Below are positions 3 through 10,311 of a DNA stretch of 64,000 nt, in pieces. Source of the stretch: Hyphomicrobiales bacterium (GTDB lineage: Bacteria > Pseudomonadota > Alphaproteobacteria > Parvibaculales > Parvibaculaceae); contig WGND01000001.1 in the NCBI GenBank assembly GCA_016124805.1, positions 372,001-436,000 on the forward strand, given 5' to 3'. A program made the position numbers and the translations under genes. A model generated the notes under the pieces. The model was not told where the DNA came from. It saw only the letters and a list, made by a program, of their open reading frames with translations, and made no database searches. Position 1 is the first letter of the stretch. Each line of letters starts with the position of its first letter.

Positions 3-1721
<1,719 letters not shown>

Positions 1722-4960: not shown

Positions 4961-6283
4961 CTAGTTGGCCATGGCGGCTGTTTGCTTGCCGCCAAGATAA
5001 GCTGCGTCCTTGCGGATGCCATTCAGCAGGTCGATGGCATAGAGAAGCTGCTTGTCGTCTTTCTTGTCAGCCGGCACATAGCTGTTGGACCCGGCCTGTT
5101 CCTCGCCCTTCTCGGCGGCCAGATGACCCGGCAGTTCCGCCTCACCTGTCACCATCGGGCGCTTTTTGCCTTCCGGATCATCCTGATCGACCATGATGTC
5201 GGGATCGATGCCCTTGGCCTGAATGGAGCGGCCGGCAGGCGTGTAATAACGCGCCGTTGTCAGGCGCAGAGCGCCGTCGGAACCGAGCGGAATGATTGTC
5301 TGGACGGAGCCCTTGCCGAATGAACGTGTGCCAAGGATCGTGGCGCGACGGTGATCCTGCAGGGCACCGGCAACAATTTCGGAGGCCGAGGCCGAACCGC
5401 CATTGACGAGCACGATGATGGGCTTGCCATTGGTGGTGTCGCCGCCACGGGCATTGTAGCGCTGCGTGTCTTCGGCATGGCGGCCGCGTGTTGAAACGAT
5501 CTCGCCGCCATCGAGGAAATCATCGCTGACCGAAATCGCCTGATCGAGAAGGCCGCCGGGATTGTTGCGCAGATCAAGGATGTAACCTTTGACCTTTGAC
5601 TTGCCGATCTGCTTGTTGAGATCGTCAATCGCCTCATCGAGAAGATCCGTGGTCTGCTCATTGAAAGAGGTGATGCGGATATAGCCGATGTCGCCTTCGC
5701 GATGGTAACGCACCGACTTGATCGTGATGATGTCGCGGGTCAGCGTCACATCGAAGGGATCGGGTACGTCCTTGCGCACGATGGTGAGTTTGATCTTCGT
5801 GTTTACAGCGCCGCGCATCTTGTCGACGGCATCGCTCAGCGTCAGGCCGAGGATCTGTTCGCCATCAATATGGGTGATGTAGTCATTGGGGCGCAGGCCG
5901 GCGCGGCTGGCAGGCGTGTCGTCGATCGGGGTGACAACCTTGACGACGCCATTTTCCATCGTGACTTCGATACCCAGGCCGCCGAACTCGCCGCGTGTCT
6001 GGACCTGCATGTCACGGAAATTTTTGGGGTTCATATAGCTTGAATGCGGATCAAGTGCGGTCAGCATGCCGTTGATGGCTGTTTCAACGAGTTTGGCGTC
6101 ATCGGTTGGCTCGACGTAATCGGCGCGCACCCGCTCAAACACATCGCCGAAAAGATTGAGCTGGCGATAGGTGTTGGAATCTTCCGCATGGGCGCCCGTA
6201 ATGCCACCAGACTGGAGGGTGAAGACGGTGAGAACGGATACGAAAGCACCAAGCGTGAAGCCGGCGATTACAGACTTTTTCAT
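4961..6283 (-). CDS. ctpA: S41 family C-terminal processing peptidase
   Basis: This periplasmic serine protease trims C-termini of envelope proteins. The 440-residue product has a signal anchor (residues 1-33), a PDZ domain (about 95-175, GGLGIEV through VDKMRGAV) and the S41 catalytic domain. The SASAS motif at 297-301 and SFGKG at 321-325 give a Ser299/Lys324 dyad, with the same 25-residue spacing as E. coli Tsp. The ATG at 6283 is one base after the stop of the envC-like gene; a GTG at 6307 would add eight residues and overlap that gene. It is co-directional with envC-like and DUF610 and likely co-transcribed. In other bacteria such proteases control peptidoglycan hydrolases. Confidence 0.93.
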   Translation of the reverse strand: MKKSVIAGFTLGAFVSVLTVFTLQSGGITGAHAEDSNTYRQLNLFGDVFERVRADYVEPTDDAKLVETAINGMLTALDPHSSYMNPKNFRDMQVQTRGEFGGLGIEVTMENGVVKVVTPIDDTPASRAGLRPNDYITHIDGEQILGLTLSDAVDKMRGAVNTKIKLTIVRKDVPDPFDVTLTRDIITIKSVRYHREGDIGYIRITSFNEQTTDLLDEAIDDLNKQIGKSKVKGYILDLRNNPGGLLDQAISVSDDFLDGGEIVSTRGRHAEDTQRYNARGGDTTNGKPIIVLVNGGSASASEIVAGALQDHRRATILGTRSFGKGSVQTIIPLGSDGALRLTTARYYTPAGRSIQAKGIDPDIMVDQDDPEGKKRPMVTGEAELPGHLAAEKGEEQAGSNSYVPADKKDDKQLLYAIDLLNGIRKDAAYLGGKQTAAMAN

Positions 6284-6284
6284 G

Positions 6285-7646
6285 TTAGCCACGAGCCTTT
6301 TTGTCACTCATTAACAGCCAAGGGCGAGGATCGACCGGATCACCGTCTTTACGAAATTCAATATAGAGCGTTGGACCGCTTTTAGACATAGCGCTGCCAC
6401 CGGCCTGGCTCGTTTGTGAAGCGATATTGCCGGTTTGGCCCATTTCACCCAGGGGCTCGCCTGCAAGAACCTGCTGGCCGGTTTGCCCATCTATGCGGGC
6501 CATTCCCGCAAGCAGCACATGGTAGCCTTCCCCGACTGAAATGATCAAGAGTTGCCCATATCCTCTGAATGGTCCGGCAAAAACGATTTTGCCATCAAAC
6601 GGGGCAATCACCTGCGCCTCATAGCGGGTCGCAATGGTCATGCCCTGCAATTTGCCGCCCAAACCGTTATCCGCGCCAAAGCCGCGCAGGATGGTCCCGG
6701 TTACAGGCGGCCTGATAAGACCTTTTGCCTCAGAAAAGCGGCGAGAAGAGGGCATGGCCGGGGGTGTTTTGGGGGGTGTGAGCACCGCCAGCCGGGTTTT
6801 TTCAGTCGGCGCGGCCTGAGGGGGCGATGGCGCGGCGGGTTCGGGTTGTGCCGAAGGGGCGGGCACCGGCTCAGGCCGGACAGGCTCCGGTCGGATGGCG
6901 GGCAGGCGGGAGGCGGCGTTTGCCTCCAGCCGGTTGATGAGGTCTTTCAGATCGGTCGCCTGCTGCGAGAGAGCCGCCACTTTTTGCTGTTCGCTCCGGG
7001 CTTCTGCCGAAAGCTTCTTGCTGACGGCTTCTTTCTCGGCCAGCAGTTTTTCCAGTTTGCTGCGTTCTGCATCCAGGGCCCCGCGCGCTGCGGTCATATT
7101 CTGCCGTTCGGCCAGGATTTCCTTACGCAGGCGTGCGAGCTCTTCCAGACGGTTGGCAAGGTCCTTTGCCTCCGCCTGGAGCTCGGGCACGGCCTTGCCC
7201 AGCAGCAGGGCACTGCGCAGGGCGGTCAACGCGTCATCAGGGCTTACGGCCATCGCCGGCGGGGGATTGGGATCAAGTCGCGTCAGGGCCGCCAGAAGGT
7301 CAGCCATTTCGCCACGACGATGCGCAAGACGCGCAGTGACCACTTCCTCGGCGGCTGTCAGCCCGCTCAGTCGGCCTTCCGACGCGGAGACATCTGCTTC
7401 CCGCGCCTGCACGCGGGCAGCGGTATCGATGAGCCTGGCACGGATCGCCTCGGCTTCCTTGCGGGCCGCGTCGGCTTCGGCGGACAGCTTTTCCTGACGG
7501 CCTGCACTTTTGTCGATTTTTTCCTGCAGTGTTTCCAGCTCGCCCGGATCGGCGACCTCTGCCATTGCCTCACATGCCGCAAGCGTTGCGACCAGCAGGA
7601 GACTGATCCCGACAAGACGATATGCCTTGCGGCTAGACATGGGCAT
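6285..7646 (-). CDS. EnvC-like murein hydrolase activator
   Basis: EnvC-type proteins activate periplasmic amidases during cell division. This 453-residue protein has a signal peptide, long coiled-coil segments (about residues 35-115 and 150-245), a Pro/Ala-rich linker and a C-terminal LytM/M23 domain. The M23 zinc ligands are missing: the HxGxD region reads QGMTIAT, and the HLHFE motif reads TLYIEF. The domain is therefore expected to be inactive as a peptidase, as in E. coli EnvC. The start overlaps the end of the gpmI-like gene by 14 bases (8 if Met3 is used), and ctpA begins one base after its stop, so the genes are translationally coupled. Confidence 0.88.
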   Translation of the reverse strand: MPMSSRKAYRLVGISLLLVATLAACEAMAEVADPGELETLQEKIDKSAGRQEKLSAEADAARKEAEAIRARLIDTAARVQAREADVSASEGRLSGLTAAEEVVTARLAHRRGEMADLLAALTRLDPNPPPAMAVSPDDALTALRSALLLGKAVPELQAEAKDLANRLEELARLRKEILAERQNMTAARGALDAERSKLEKLLAEKEAVSKKLSAEARSEQQKVAALSQQATDLKDLINRLEANAASRLPAIRPEPVRPEPVPAPSAQPEPAAPSPPQAAPTEKTRLAVLTPPKTPPAMPSSRRFSEAKGLIRPPVTGTILRGFGADNGLGGKLQGMTIATRYEAQVIAPFDGKIVFAGPFRGYGQLLIISVGEGYHVLLAGMARIDGQTGQQVLAGEPLGEMGQTGNIASQTSQAGGSAMSKSGPTLYIEFRKDGDPVDPRPWLLMSDKKARG

Positions 7647-9225
7647 CAGCGGCTTGCGTGGCGGCAGCCTGTGCCGCTTTCGGCTGCAGCAGGGACTGAC
7701 CGCTCATGGCCGCAGGCTTGCGAATGCCCAGAAGGGCCAGAAGCGTGGGGGCCACATCAGCCAGCGTGCCATGCGCCAGCGCAAAGCCTGTCTCTGCACC
7801 GGCCAGAATGAAGGGGACCTTCGCGGTCGTTGTGGCGCGATGCCCGCCTTTGCCGTCAGCCGTCTCCATGGTCTCGGCCTTGCCATAGCTGCCGACGACA
7901 ACGAGCGTGCCTTTTCGCTTTTCGACCTGCGCGACAATTTTGCCAAGATGTTTGTCGATGGCTTCCACGGCATCGATTGTTGCGCGGAGGTTGCCGGTCT
8001 TGCCAAAGAGCGCCGCATTGGGGAAATGCAGCGTGATGAGGTGATGTGTGCCGGCCTTCATGGCCACCAATGCTTCATGGGTGATGCTGGCCGCGGCAAG
8101 TTCGGGCCGCTTGTCAATTTTGGCAAAGGGGGGCGTGTCGGCCACGAGCACGGTTTCCCCAGGCCATAATTCATTCTTGCCTGCGCGCGCATTCAGCCAG
8201 ATCTGATTGGCACAGATCGACTCCGTCAGTGCGAGCTGCTCCATGCCCGCCTGTGAAAGCGTCTGGCTCAAGGTGTCCGCAATCTGTGGCGTTTCAAAGA
8301 TCGCCCTGATGTCTGTGTTCTCTGCATCAATTGTCGATACGAGACTATAGAAGCCTGAGAGCTTGCGAGGTGTCCGGTTGAGATGTGGATCTGCCAGCCG
8401 CGCCTGCAGCCCGCTCATCAGGCCGTGTGCCGTCTCGGCATGCAGATTGAGCAACAGGACGGCATCATCGGACCGTATGCCGCGATAGGCCTGCGTGATG
8501 ATGGGCGGGATGCGGTCGTCCCTCTGCCCCTTGGCATAGCAGGCGGCCAGATGCGCGGTGGGATAATCGGCGTTCAGCGCATCGGCATCGGCGAGCATGG
8601 CCACCGCCTTGGCTGCCAGTTCGGGATCGGATGGTTCGTCAAAGCCATAGGCGCGGCCCATGATGCTGGCAAGCATCGTGTTTTCAGCCGCCGAAATATC
8701 GTCGATGAATTCGCGCAGATGATCGAGACCGCTCTGTGCGCCCGCATCAATGCCGTCGAGCACGGCATGGACCTGCACATCCACACCCTCGTGGCTGAGG
8801 AGGGCGGCCATCACGGCCATCAGATGTTTGTGGCCCAGAATGCCCGACGGCGACACCATGCCGACAAGATGCACGGCACCGCCCAGTGAGCGCACGCGGG
8901 CAATCATTTCTGCCATGACCGGATGGCGCGCAAGGGCATCGGCCCCGTCTTCCTGAATGAAGCGTGAAATGATCTGGCCCATTTCAGGCACGGCGCGACC
9001 CGCACCCAATGTGGTGAAGGCGGCCTGGGCATAGCCGGGCCTGCCAGCAGGCAGGCCGACGGCTTCGCCGGCAGCGTCGAGATGGCAATGGGGATAGCTT
9101 GCCGCCAGACGGTCAAAGATGGGCGTGCGGGCCAATGCAATGGCATTGGCTTCTCGTTCGTCTCTCAGGCCCCAGCCGTCGAGAATGGCGAGGACAAGCG
9201 GGCGATCGGTGGTGATGGCAGTCAT
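7633..9225 (-). CDS. Phosphoglycerate mutase-like protein lacking the active site (GpmI pseudoenzyme)
   Basis: The 530-residue protein aligns along its whole length with cofactor-independent phosphoglycerate mutase (LVLAILDGWG start, GLPAG, VHAVLDG, KAVEAxD-like helix, SDIAPT-like end). From memory of the E. coli and Geobacillus enzymes, the metal ligands and catalytic Ser are replaced: GNSEVGH reads GYAQAAF (Ser to Ala66), GDMVGH reads AALFGK (Asp to Ala405, His to Lys409), DHGN reads SYGK (Asp to Ser446, His to Tyr447) and the last His is Thr465. Only Asp16 remains. Substrate arginines are also lost (DGRD to DGID, NFRADR to NLHAET). No stop or frameshift is present. The start at 9225 matches the family; Met at 9282 would add 19 residues. 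It overlaps the envC-like gene. Function unknown. Confidence 0.85.
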   Translation of the reverse strand: MTAITTDRPLVLAILDGWGLRDEREANAIALARTPIFDRLAASYPHCHLDAAGEAVGLPAGRPGYAQAAFTTLGAGRAVPEMGQIISRFIQEDGADALARHPVMAEMIARVRSLGGAVHLVGMVSPSGILGHKHLMAVMAALLSHEGVDVQVHAVLDGIDAGAQSGLDHLREFIDDISAAENTMLASIMGRAYGFDEPSDPELAAKAVAMLADADALNADYPTAHLAACYAKGQRDDRIPPIITQAYRGIRSDDAVLLLNLHAETAHGLMSGLQARLADPHLNRTPRKLSGFYSLVSTIDAENTDIRAIFETPQIADTLSQTLSQAGMEQLALTESICANQIWLNARAGKNELWPGETVLVADTPPFAKIDKRPELAAASITHEALVAMKAGTHHLITLHFPNAALFGKTGNLRATIDAVEAIDKHLGKIVAQVEKRKGTLVVVGSYGKAETMETADGKGGHRATTTAKVPFILAGAETGFALAHGTLADVAPTLLALLGIRKPAAMSGQSLLQPKAAQAAATQAADAHV

Positions 9226-9347: not shown

Positions 9348-9830
9348 TCAGACGCGGTGATAGGGATGGCCGCTTAAAATTGTGATTGCACGATAAATCT
9401 GTTCCGCCAGCATGACGCGCACCAGCATATGCGGCCATGTCATCGGCCCGAGCGCCATGAGGTGATCAGCGCGCTCACGCAAGGCAGGTGCAAAACCGTC
9501 AGCGCCACCGATCAAGAAGCAGAGATCACTCGTGCCCTGATCGCGCCATTGCCCCAGTCGCGCGGCAAATTCGGTGCTGGGTTCAGCCTTGCCGCGCTCA
9601 TCCAGGGCGACGAGCGTTGCGCCCTTGGGCATCGCGCCCAGAAGCAGCGTTGCTTCGCGCTCGCGCAGCGCCATTCCTTCGAGGGCCTTTTTTTCCTCGA
9701 CCTCATGCAGGCTGAGGCTGGTCATGCCAATACCGCGCCCGACCGCGTCGATGCGCGCGGCATATGTGTCGAGAAGTTGCCGTTCCGGCCCACTGCGCAG
9801 GCGCCCTACGGCGCAAATCTGAATGCGCAT
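9348..9830 (-). CDS. rlmH: 23S rRNA (pseudouridine1915-N3)-methyltransferase RlmH
   Basis: RlmH is a small SPOUT methyltransferase that methylates pseudouridine 1915 of 23S rRNA in the assembled ribosome using S-adenosylmethionine. The 160-residue product has the knot-forming motifs LIGGADGF at 106-113 and [15 protein letters not shown] at 134-148, and ends in the family signature HPYHR. The ATG at 9830 has a strong GGAGG just upstream. It follows rsfS by 58 bases in the same direction, an order common in many bacteria. Confidence 0.94.
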
Positions 9831-9888: not shown

Positions 9889-10311
9889 CTAGATCGCGGC
9901 CTGATCAGCCGGAATGTCTGCCGCCCACATTTTTTCCAGCCTGTAGAAGTCACGGACTTCAGGCCGGAAGATATGGATCACGACATCGCCGCCATCGATG
10001 AGCACCCAGTCACCCGACTGCATGCCCTCGACATGAGCCGACCCAAAACCGGCTTCCTTGATACGGCGCACAAGATGATCGGCCACCGCGCCGACATGGC
10101 GCTGCGAACGACCGCTTGCGACAACCATATTGTCAGCCATCGGTGTTTTTCCGGTAAGATCAATGGAAACGATGTCTTCGGCTTTGTCTTCATCAAGGCT
10201 CTCCATCACGAGAGCAAGCAGCGCCGAAGAGCTGCTATCAGGAGCAGGCCTATCACCCGGATAGGTCGCATCAGACTCGAGCCGTTCTGGCCCCTTACCC
10301 CTTGCGGGCAT
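9889..10311 (-). CDS. rsfS: Ribosomal silencing factor RsfS
   Basis: RsfS binds ribosomal protein L14 and blocks subunit joining when nutrients are low. The product has the RsfS core ([48 protein letters not shown]). From the ATG at 10311 it has 140 residues, with about 35 poorly conserved N-terminal ones. No clear ribosome binding site precedes this ATG. A strong AAGGAG at 10355-10360 lies seven bases before an in-frame CTG at 10347-10345, which would add 12 residues; the true start is therefore open. A terminator lies just upstream, after nadD. Confidence 0.92.

Follow-up and report, generated by a model that had tools for sequence, protein, structure and literature searches.

Why would a lineage of bacteria keep a full-length homologue of a phosphoglycerate mutase after nearly all of its catalytic residues have been replaced? 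The question arises from a stretch of DNA of 64,000 nucleotides (nt) from a Hyphomicrobiales bacterium of the Parvibaculaceae (assembly GCA_016124805.1, contig WGND01000001.1, positions 372,001 to 436,000; the whole stretch is called the window below), in which an open reading frame (ORF) on the minus strand (7633..9225) reads from an ATG at 9225 to a stop at 7633 and encodes 530 amino acids (aa). We call it psGpmI (pseudo-GpmI), a catalytically degenerate homologue of the cofactor-independent phosphoglycerate mutase (iPGM/GpmI). From comparison with related sequences, we consider it very likely that psGpmI is an old pseudo-iPGM shared by a whole clade: a descendant of gpmI whose catalysis was lost in a common ancestor, with gpmA as the likely trigger, and which has been held since then by purifying selection.

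Homology and active site of psGpmI

Both iPGM domains were recognised in psGpmI by Pfam (Metalloenzyme, 128.5 bits, E 4e-37; iPGM_N, 88.9 bits, E 4e-25), and the iPGM equivalog model TIGR01307 covers it at model positions 2-504 of 504 with 311.2 bits, below the cut-off of 330.65. This cut-off is reached or slightly exceeded in 3 of the 40 genomes of the psGpmI-bearing order, and is therefore no guide to whether an iPGM is dead or live. In a phmmer search against the PDB, residues 7-513 aligned with the solved iPGM chains 1o99 (E 5e-66) and 1ejj (E 1e-65), the latter with short gaps only, and a profile made from 14 relatives matched the PDB iPGM chains at E 1.5e-105. Judged from these full-length alignments, membership of the iPGM/GpmI family by homology is not in doubt.

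The active site was mapped in the numbering of the 1ejj chain (B. stearothermophilus iPGM), whose mapped residues we take to be seven metal/nucleophile and eight substrate residues, and it was followed through two sets of relatives. The first was the order sample of 40 genomes, all of one family (Parvibaculaceae, the alphaproteobacterial family of Parvibaculum in NCBI taxonomy): 31 have a TIGR01307 match, G011 has a contig-end fragment and 8 have no match. Its alignment holds 31 rows from 30 genomes (the G013 and G016 rows are partial; G062 and two fragments were excluded), and family counts below refer to the rows reaching each site. The second was a sister group, consisting of three genomes of family f108 (G147, G233, G305) with very weak TIGR01307 matches (E 1e-14 to 1e-19), in which an ORF of about 520 aa lies in the same position between rlmH and envC (3/3 genomes); this more eroded version is carried by 4/4 genomes of that order, and the active site was aligned in three.

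The window protein retains just one of the seven metal/nucleophile residues. The phosphoserine Ser62 is A66 (codon 9028..9030, this and the following codons on the minus strand; Ser in 0/30 family rows, segment deleted in 3/3 sister-group rows), Asp403 is A405 (8011..8013; Asp in 0/31 family and 0/3 sister-group rows), His407 is K409 (7999..8001; Arg in 27/31 family rows, His in 3/31, Lys in the window), Asp444-His445 is S446-Y447 (7885..7890; Asp444 in 0/31 and His445 in 7/31 family rows, segment deleted in 3/3 sister-group rows) and His462 is T465 (7831..7833; His in 0/31 and 0/3). The sole metal ligand kept is Asp12 (D16, codon 9178..9180), which is present in 29/29 family rows and is Gln in 3/3 sister-group rows. 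The substrate residues lost in the window are His123 (L130; kept in 1/30 family rows), Arg153 (I159; 0/30), Arg191 (E197; 6/30), Arg261 (H262; 12/30), Arg264 (T265; 0/30) and Lys336 (C338; 0/31), while two of the eight, Asp154 (D160) and Arg185 (R191), are kept there and in 30/30 family and 3/3 sister-group rows. Ser62, Asp403, Asp444, His462, Arg264 and Lys336 are missing from every aligned family and sister-group row reaching each site. The canonical comparison set of 41 rows consisted of the PDB reference, the two tandem copies of G121 and 38 rows from 36 class genomes (G043 and G051 appear twice). In 40 of these rows none of the 15 mapped residues is missing, the exception being one G121 tandem copy with Arg153 replaced by Cys.

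The original prediction had described a full-length GpmI homologue with an intact frame and six of seven metal/catalytic residues gone; both points hold after mapping onto 1ejj, with the iPGM alignment spanning residues 7-513 of the minus-strand ORF. It had also noted missing substrate arginines, the retained Asp154 and Arg185 having gone unmentioned. A misalignment, or a ligand set rebuilt elsewhere, was considered and has no support as far as the sequence reaches, the gaps in the alignment with 1ejj all being short; the new conserved His and acidic residues described below leave a rebuilt set some small probability.

As in other pseudoenzymes, the catalytic motif of psGpmI is absent and its homologous family is recognisable. 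From the known chemistry of this family, mutase activity has almost certainly been lost, and the metal would be absent as well. The protein would take the two-domain fold of iPGM but lack both catalytic metals, and the Arg found in most of the family (Lys in the window) at the position of the metal ligand His407 may neutralise the remaining Asp16, as would be expected of a positive side chain standing in for a metal.

The two retained substrate residues suggest another possibility, that psGpmI is a metabolite sensor, binding a small molecule with what is left of the substrate pocket around Asp154 and Arg185. Such a sensor would agree with the complete conservation of this pair, with the retention of Arg153 in 3/3 sister-group rows and with an iPGM_N domain that stays recognisable in the sister group; however, Asp154 and Arg185 could be structural, and the loss of Arg153, Arg264, Lys336 and most of His123, Arg191 and Arg261 in the family makes it unlikely that 3-phosphoglycerate is bound as in the active enzyme. 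We regard a sensor as unlikely.

Shared losses, descent and selection

No stop was found inside the TIGR01307-matched part in 32/32 matched rows of the order. A longer-reaching search flagged one stop in 7 family rows, which we took as terminal stops because none lies inside the matched part of the same 7 rows. The recurrence of the same site losses in relatives, together with the stop-free rows, excludes chance and sequencing error. Of the 8 family genomes with no psGpmI match, seven (G003, G005, G015, G021, G023, G031, G034) have no rlmH match either, so that the locus is probably missing from those assemblies; weak matches in G003, G005, G015, G021 and G023 were taken, unchecked, for sulfatase-type relatives. 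As far as can be told, G027 is the sole true absence among the family genomes. In one assembly, G007 (4% contamination), most of the locus from proA to rppH is present twice (L036, L037), with seven compared genes 67-86% identical between the copies, which probably reflects two species in one bin.

In the gene tree all psGpmI rows (two partial ones excluded) form one clade with a support of 0.999, and in a tree of flanking genes (10 genes, 34 taxa, FastTree; G038, G040, G046 and G057 dropped for low coverage) the family has a support of 1.000. A single origin is the simplest reading of these trees, not a proven one. psGpmI very likely descends directly from the alphaproteobacterial gpmI and has stayed at the ancestral locus, and its catalysis would have been lost in the common ancestor of the Parvibaculaceae and the related order.

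Selection on the gene was estimated from pairwise ratios of nonsynonymous to synonymous substitution rates (dN/dS; Nei-Gojobori method NG86, custom script, 10 pairs). The psGpmI ratio is 0.05-0.21 in 10/10 pairs, being rough in the 3/10 pairs where the synonymous rate dS exceeds 1; it is close to that of the neighbouring envC (0.04-0.24) and higher than that of ctpA (0.00-0.13). Across 22 family rows there are 105 invariant or nearly invariant positions, and the 3 sister-group rows have 55 of them fixed as well. Among the 95 positions that do not vary in 17 canonical rows, 32 are likewise invariant in the family. These ratios and the 32 stop-free rows indicate purifying selection, and a decaying pseudogene is ruled out by them.

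A milder form of decay would make psGpmI a slowly fading relic, kept only as a spacer or translational coupler of rlmH and envC. In its favour, 20/20 family rows have a candidate envC start 4-14 nt ahead of where psGpmI ends (true starts are not known), and the gene has been lost in G027. A relic is hard to reconcile with the low dN/dS in every pair, the open frames and the 105 near-invariant positions; moreover, a candidate start of this kind also occurs in 4/11 genomes with intact gpmI, and in G027, G053 and G047 rlmH and envC adjoin without any intervening gene. We give this explanation very little credence. psGpmI very probably serves a job other than the mutase reaction, and a metal-free binding or scaffold role fits best and is the most likely one. 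We propose that, since the loss of catalysis, it would have been maintained by purifying selection as a pseudoenzyme that works in the cytoplasm by binding a partner.

Several positions are conserved across the clade and are variable or different in active enzymes, namely A141, E172, D253, K425, K436 (Arg in the sister group) and R437, and S144-H145-E146 is fixed in the family only. They include a segment of iPGM_N, residues 137-147 (AVMAALLSHEG; 8785..8817, minus strand), with A141, S144, H145 and E146 family-fixed and variable in active enzymes, and a segment of the phosphatase domain, residues 421-437 (E..DK.LGK..A...KR; 7915..7965, minus strand), with the clade-specific K425, K436 and R437. 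One may ask whether such residues belong to a new enzyme, with the site rebuilt for another reaction, possibly a metal-free one. Some pseudoenzymes of other families have proved active through moved residues or other chemistry (PMC10211241). Replacements such as Arg409, Tyr447 and Thr446 occur often in the genus, and the conservation of H145, E146, E172 and D253 is new. Looking through the sequences for a catalytic or metal site elsewhere, we found one new conserved His (H145, in 30/30 family and 2/3 sister-group rows), several new conserved acidic residues and no invariant Cys; the only His invariant in both groups, H119 and H153, are also usual in canonical enzymes, the replacement residues vary between genera, and both active-site loops are deleted in the sister group. 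A new enzyme seems highly improbable to us.

The probable gpmA replacement and the rlmH-psGpmI-envC-ctpA locus

The original prediction had proposed looking for a separate gpmA or gpmI. A gpmA (TIGR01258) is present in the window genome, as in 34 of 37 family genomes overall, the three without it being assemblies of 71-84% completeness. No second intact gpmI was found in the window genome, where the psGpmI protein and TIGR01307 gave a single match each (the archaeal type TIGR00306 was not searched). The GpmA of the window genome is encoded by an open frame of 226 aa, includes RHG and HGNS motifs, which we take to be catalytic, and skips TIGR01258 model positions 122-145. In a gpmA tree (n=35), the short gpmA of the family and the sister group is set apart with a support of 0.926, and G012 (contamination 6%) has a second, long-type copy outside that group. 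The separate gpmA probably does the mutase step in the window genome, and the likely trigger of the loss of catalysis would be that this cofactor-dependent enzyme took over the glycolytic step.

To place the pair of genes in the class, we surveyed 387 genomes of completeness 90 or more (TIGR01307 at E 1e-10; TIGR01258 at E 1e-25, weaker gpmA matches counting as absent). iPGM only was found in 273, gpmA only in 79, both in 11 and neither in 24; G011, whose iPGM fragment escaped this survey, falls under gpmA only. Eight of the 11 genomes with both mutases belong to the psGpmI clade, and in the other three (G150, G244 with 8% contamination, G397) the iPGM matches have canonical scores. Most canonical matches of the class were classed by score alone, and active sites were inspected in the 41 canonical rows. 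Among 11 weak TIGR01307 scorers followed up, the three sister-group genomes (G147, G233, G305) have degenerate proteins, both iPGM copies of G121 are nearly full-length with metal and nucleophile residues in place, and G054, G081, G143, G192, G226, G287 and G389 have partial matches, several of them starting at a contig end. Two matches each, stronger than those of the 11 weak scorers, were found in G084, G232, G315 and G416, and a further class search added matches in G011 and G088 only, both contig-end pieces. As a side observation, both tandem iPGMs of the alphaproteobacterial genome G121 (L172:5928-8920) have Asp at the His125 position, and the second copy, which is the one with Cys for Arg153, has a hydrophobic N-terminal extension that looks signal-like by eye.

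Several results weigh against an old, single and selectively maintained pseudo-iPGM. Retention of a displaced iPGM is the exception, since 79 of the 90 gpmA-bearing class genomes, from many families, have no iPGM match. The gene can also be lost, as in G027 (100% complete), where rlmH is followed directly by envC with no psGpmI at an otherwise readable locus. The family and the sister group are joined at only 0.899 in the flanking-gene tree, and the gpmA tree places the sister group inside the family, so that there may have been two separate inactivations rather than one. psGpmI evolves faster than its neighbouring genes (distance ratio to flanking genes 1.80 and 2.05, vs 1.54 and 1.68 for envC). 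The iPGM_N domain, which judged from the sister group would be the part recognisable longest (iPGM_N 78.0 and Metalloenzyme 27.8 bits there, vs 88.9 and 128.5 in the window), is not the more conserved one within the family: mean entropy is 1.36 in iPGM_N and 1.23 in the phosphatase domain, nearly invariant positions number 46/226 and 59/272, and iPGM_N gains only relative to canonical enzymes (1.51 and 1.17), while the low Metalloenzyme score of the sister group is partly due to its deleted active-site loops. Finally, an AlphaFold2 model of psGpmI from 3 sequences reached a mean predicted local distance difference test score (pLDDT) of 36.6, so that fold and pocket rest on the sequence alignment.

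The gene lies in a conserved neighbourhood, in which names of flanking genes rest on Pfam (SPOUT methyltransferase, RsfS, Peptidase_M23, Peptidase_S41, Polysacc_deac_2, NUDIX). Upstream of psGpmI on the minus strand are rlmH, a SPOUT methyltransferase gene (9348..9830), and rsfS (9889..10311); downstream are a gene for an EnvC/DipM-like M23 (LytM) protein (6285..7646), which counted from its first ATG shares 14 nt with the end of psGpmI, and a ctpA-like S41 protease gene (4961..6307). The NCBIfam models EnvC, DipM and ActS all match the M23 protein, far below their cut-offs. The order rlmH-psGpmI-envC-ctpA was found in 21/21 family genomes with psGpmI whose flanks were inspected (in G030 across two contigs), and rlmH-gpmI-envC-ctpA also in 3/3 sister-group genomes and in many genomes with intact gpmI. 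Judged by this gene order, psGpmI occupies the ancestral gpmI locus, and since intact gpmI shares both the synteny and the possible overlap with envC, both features are ancestral. The remark in the original prediction that gpmI and envC are neighbours in many bacteria agrees with this order. It had proposed searching related genomes for the substitutions at the same locus: the losses there are largely clade-wide, and the relatives show no stops in the matched part. Its reading is supported in part: the full-length frame, the missing catalytic site, the gpmI-envC locus, the purifying selection and the separate gpmA speak for a pseudoenzyme, whereas a structural or regulatory role in cell-wall biology, or binding to the EnvC-like protein, is a suggestion only.

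Could psGpmI act with the adjoining EnvC-like protein in the control of peptidoglycan hydrolysis? The conserved adjacency and the possible overlap invite this idea, and in G027, which lost psGpmI, envC is accelerated (z 4.1 vs 17 other family rows, 4.9 with whole ORFs), the highest value among the tested locus genes, and the divergent polysaccharide deacetylase gene has no match at the locus (L116, G027:C3:270000-287000). However, this is a single lineage, and the same test gave other outliers (rsfS of G027, z 3.4; proA of G027, z -3.6; ctpA of G007b, z -4.6), so outliers are not rare and the envC acceleration is a hint only. The adjacency is ancestral, and G027 lost psGpmI yet kept envC. Moreover, by eye the EnvC-like protein starts with an export signal and psGpmI shows none, which suggests that the two probably sit in different compartments. 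We hold a joint role in hydrolysis control to be improbable; the possible link between psGpmI and EnvC draws on synteny and weak rate evidence. A broader version, in which psGpmI is a lasting cytoplasmic regulator whose iPGM_N binds a partner from the rsfS-rlmH-psGpmI-envC-ctpA operon and ties central metabolism or ribosome status to envelope processing in this order and the sister order, appears quite unlikely to us as well.

Two further observations were made in the window. By eye, the LytM domain of the EnvC-like protein seems to lack at least part of what we take to be the zinc-binding motif of such domains, and this protein would then be a second, probably inactive enzyme beside psGpmI. 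In addition, the atpD frame (window 6-296) carries about 97 extra N-terminal residues ahead of the TIGR01039-matched part; in G019, G025 and G233 the tblastn matches likewise reach beyond the core, and the extension may be conserved.

Comparison with known systems

The clade with psGpmI is apparently a natural experiment: an enzyme of glycolysis was made redundant and lost its chemistry, yet most of one order and a related order have retained the protein. The simplest reading is that this happened once. Graded intermediates survive, some genera still having His407 or His445 and the sister group being without even Asp12. If the role of the retained psGpmI is found, it may reveal a non-catalytic function of iPGM at the gpmI-envC locus.

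A tally of iPGM made from sequence can include a dead protein among the enzymes, as the 3 of 40 genomes of the order that reach the NCBIfam equivalog cut-off illustrate. In the census of Foster et al. 2010 (PMC2964296), in the portions drawn on here, P. lavamentivorans is discussed among the genomes with both mutase forms, and its cofactor-dependent mutase (dPGM) is noted as short and S. pombe-like. To call an iPGM, that census used tblastn, set a threshold of 100 bits and relied on best hits back to E. coli, and iPGM pseudogenes are named only where truncated or carrying a stop; by the 100-bit criterion a dead homologue would count as an enzyme, and we infer that the P. lavamentivorans iPGM entry is the counterpart of psGpmI. 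The census was also the only paper with both Parvibaculum and phosphoglycerate mutase in the open-access literature searched. No description of a catalytically dead iPGM was found in that literature (subscription papers were outside the search), in agreement, within this scope, with the earlier remark that none was known, and the word "phosphoglycerate" is absent from the main text of PMC10211241 on pseudoenzymes.

psGpmI shares with bacterial iPGM (GpmI/GpmM, TIGR01307, 1ejj) its full-length homology, its ancestral locus and its domain order, a Metalloenzyme domain with inserted iPGM_N, and differs in the replacement of 6/7 metal/nucleophile and 6/8 substrate residues and in a TIGR01307 score below the cut-off. 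The two enzymes involved are the same as in the known non-homologous isofunctional replacement of iPGM and dPGM, and the GpmA of the window genome shares the short form of the S. pombe-type dPGM (both after the portions of PMC2964296 cited above). Like the pseudokinases and pseudophosphatases treated in PMC10211241, psGpmI has lost its motif, still belongs to a recognisable fold family and is retained as a gene; unlike those pseudoenzymes, it derives from a central enzyme of glycolysis and, in its inactive form, accompanies a non-homologous enzyme of the same step.

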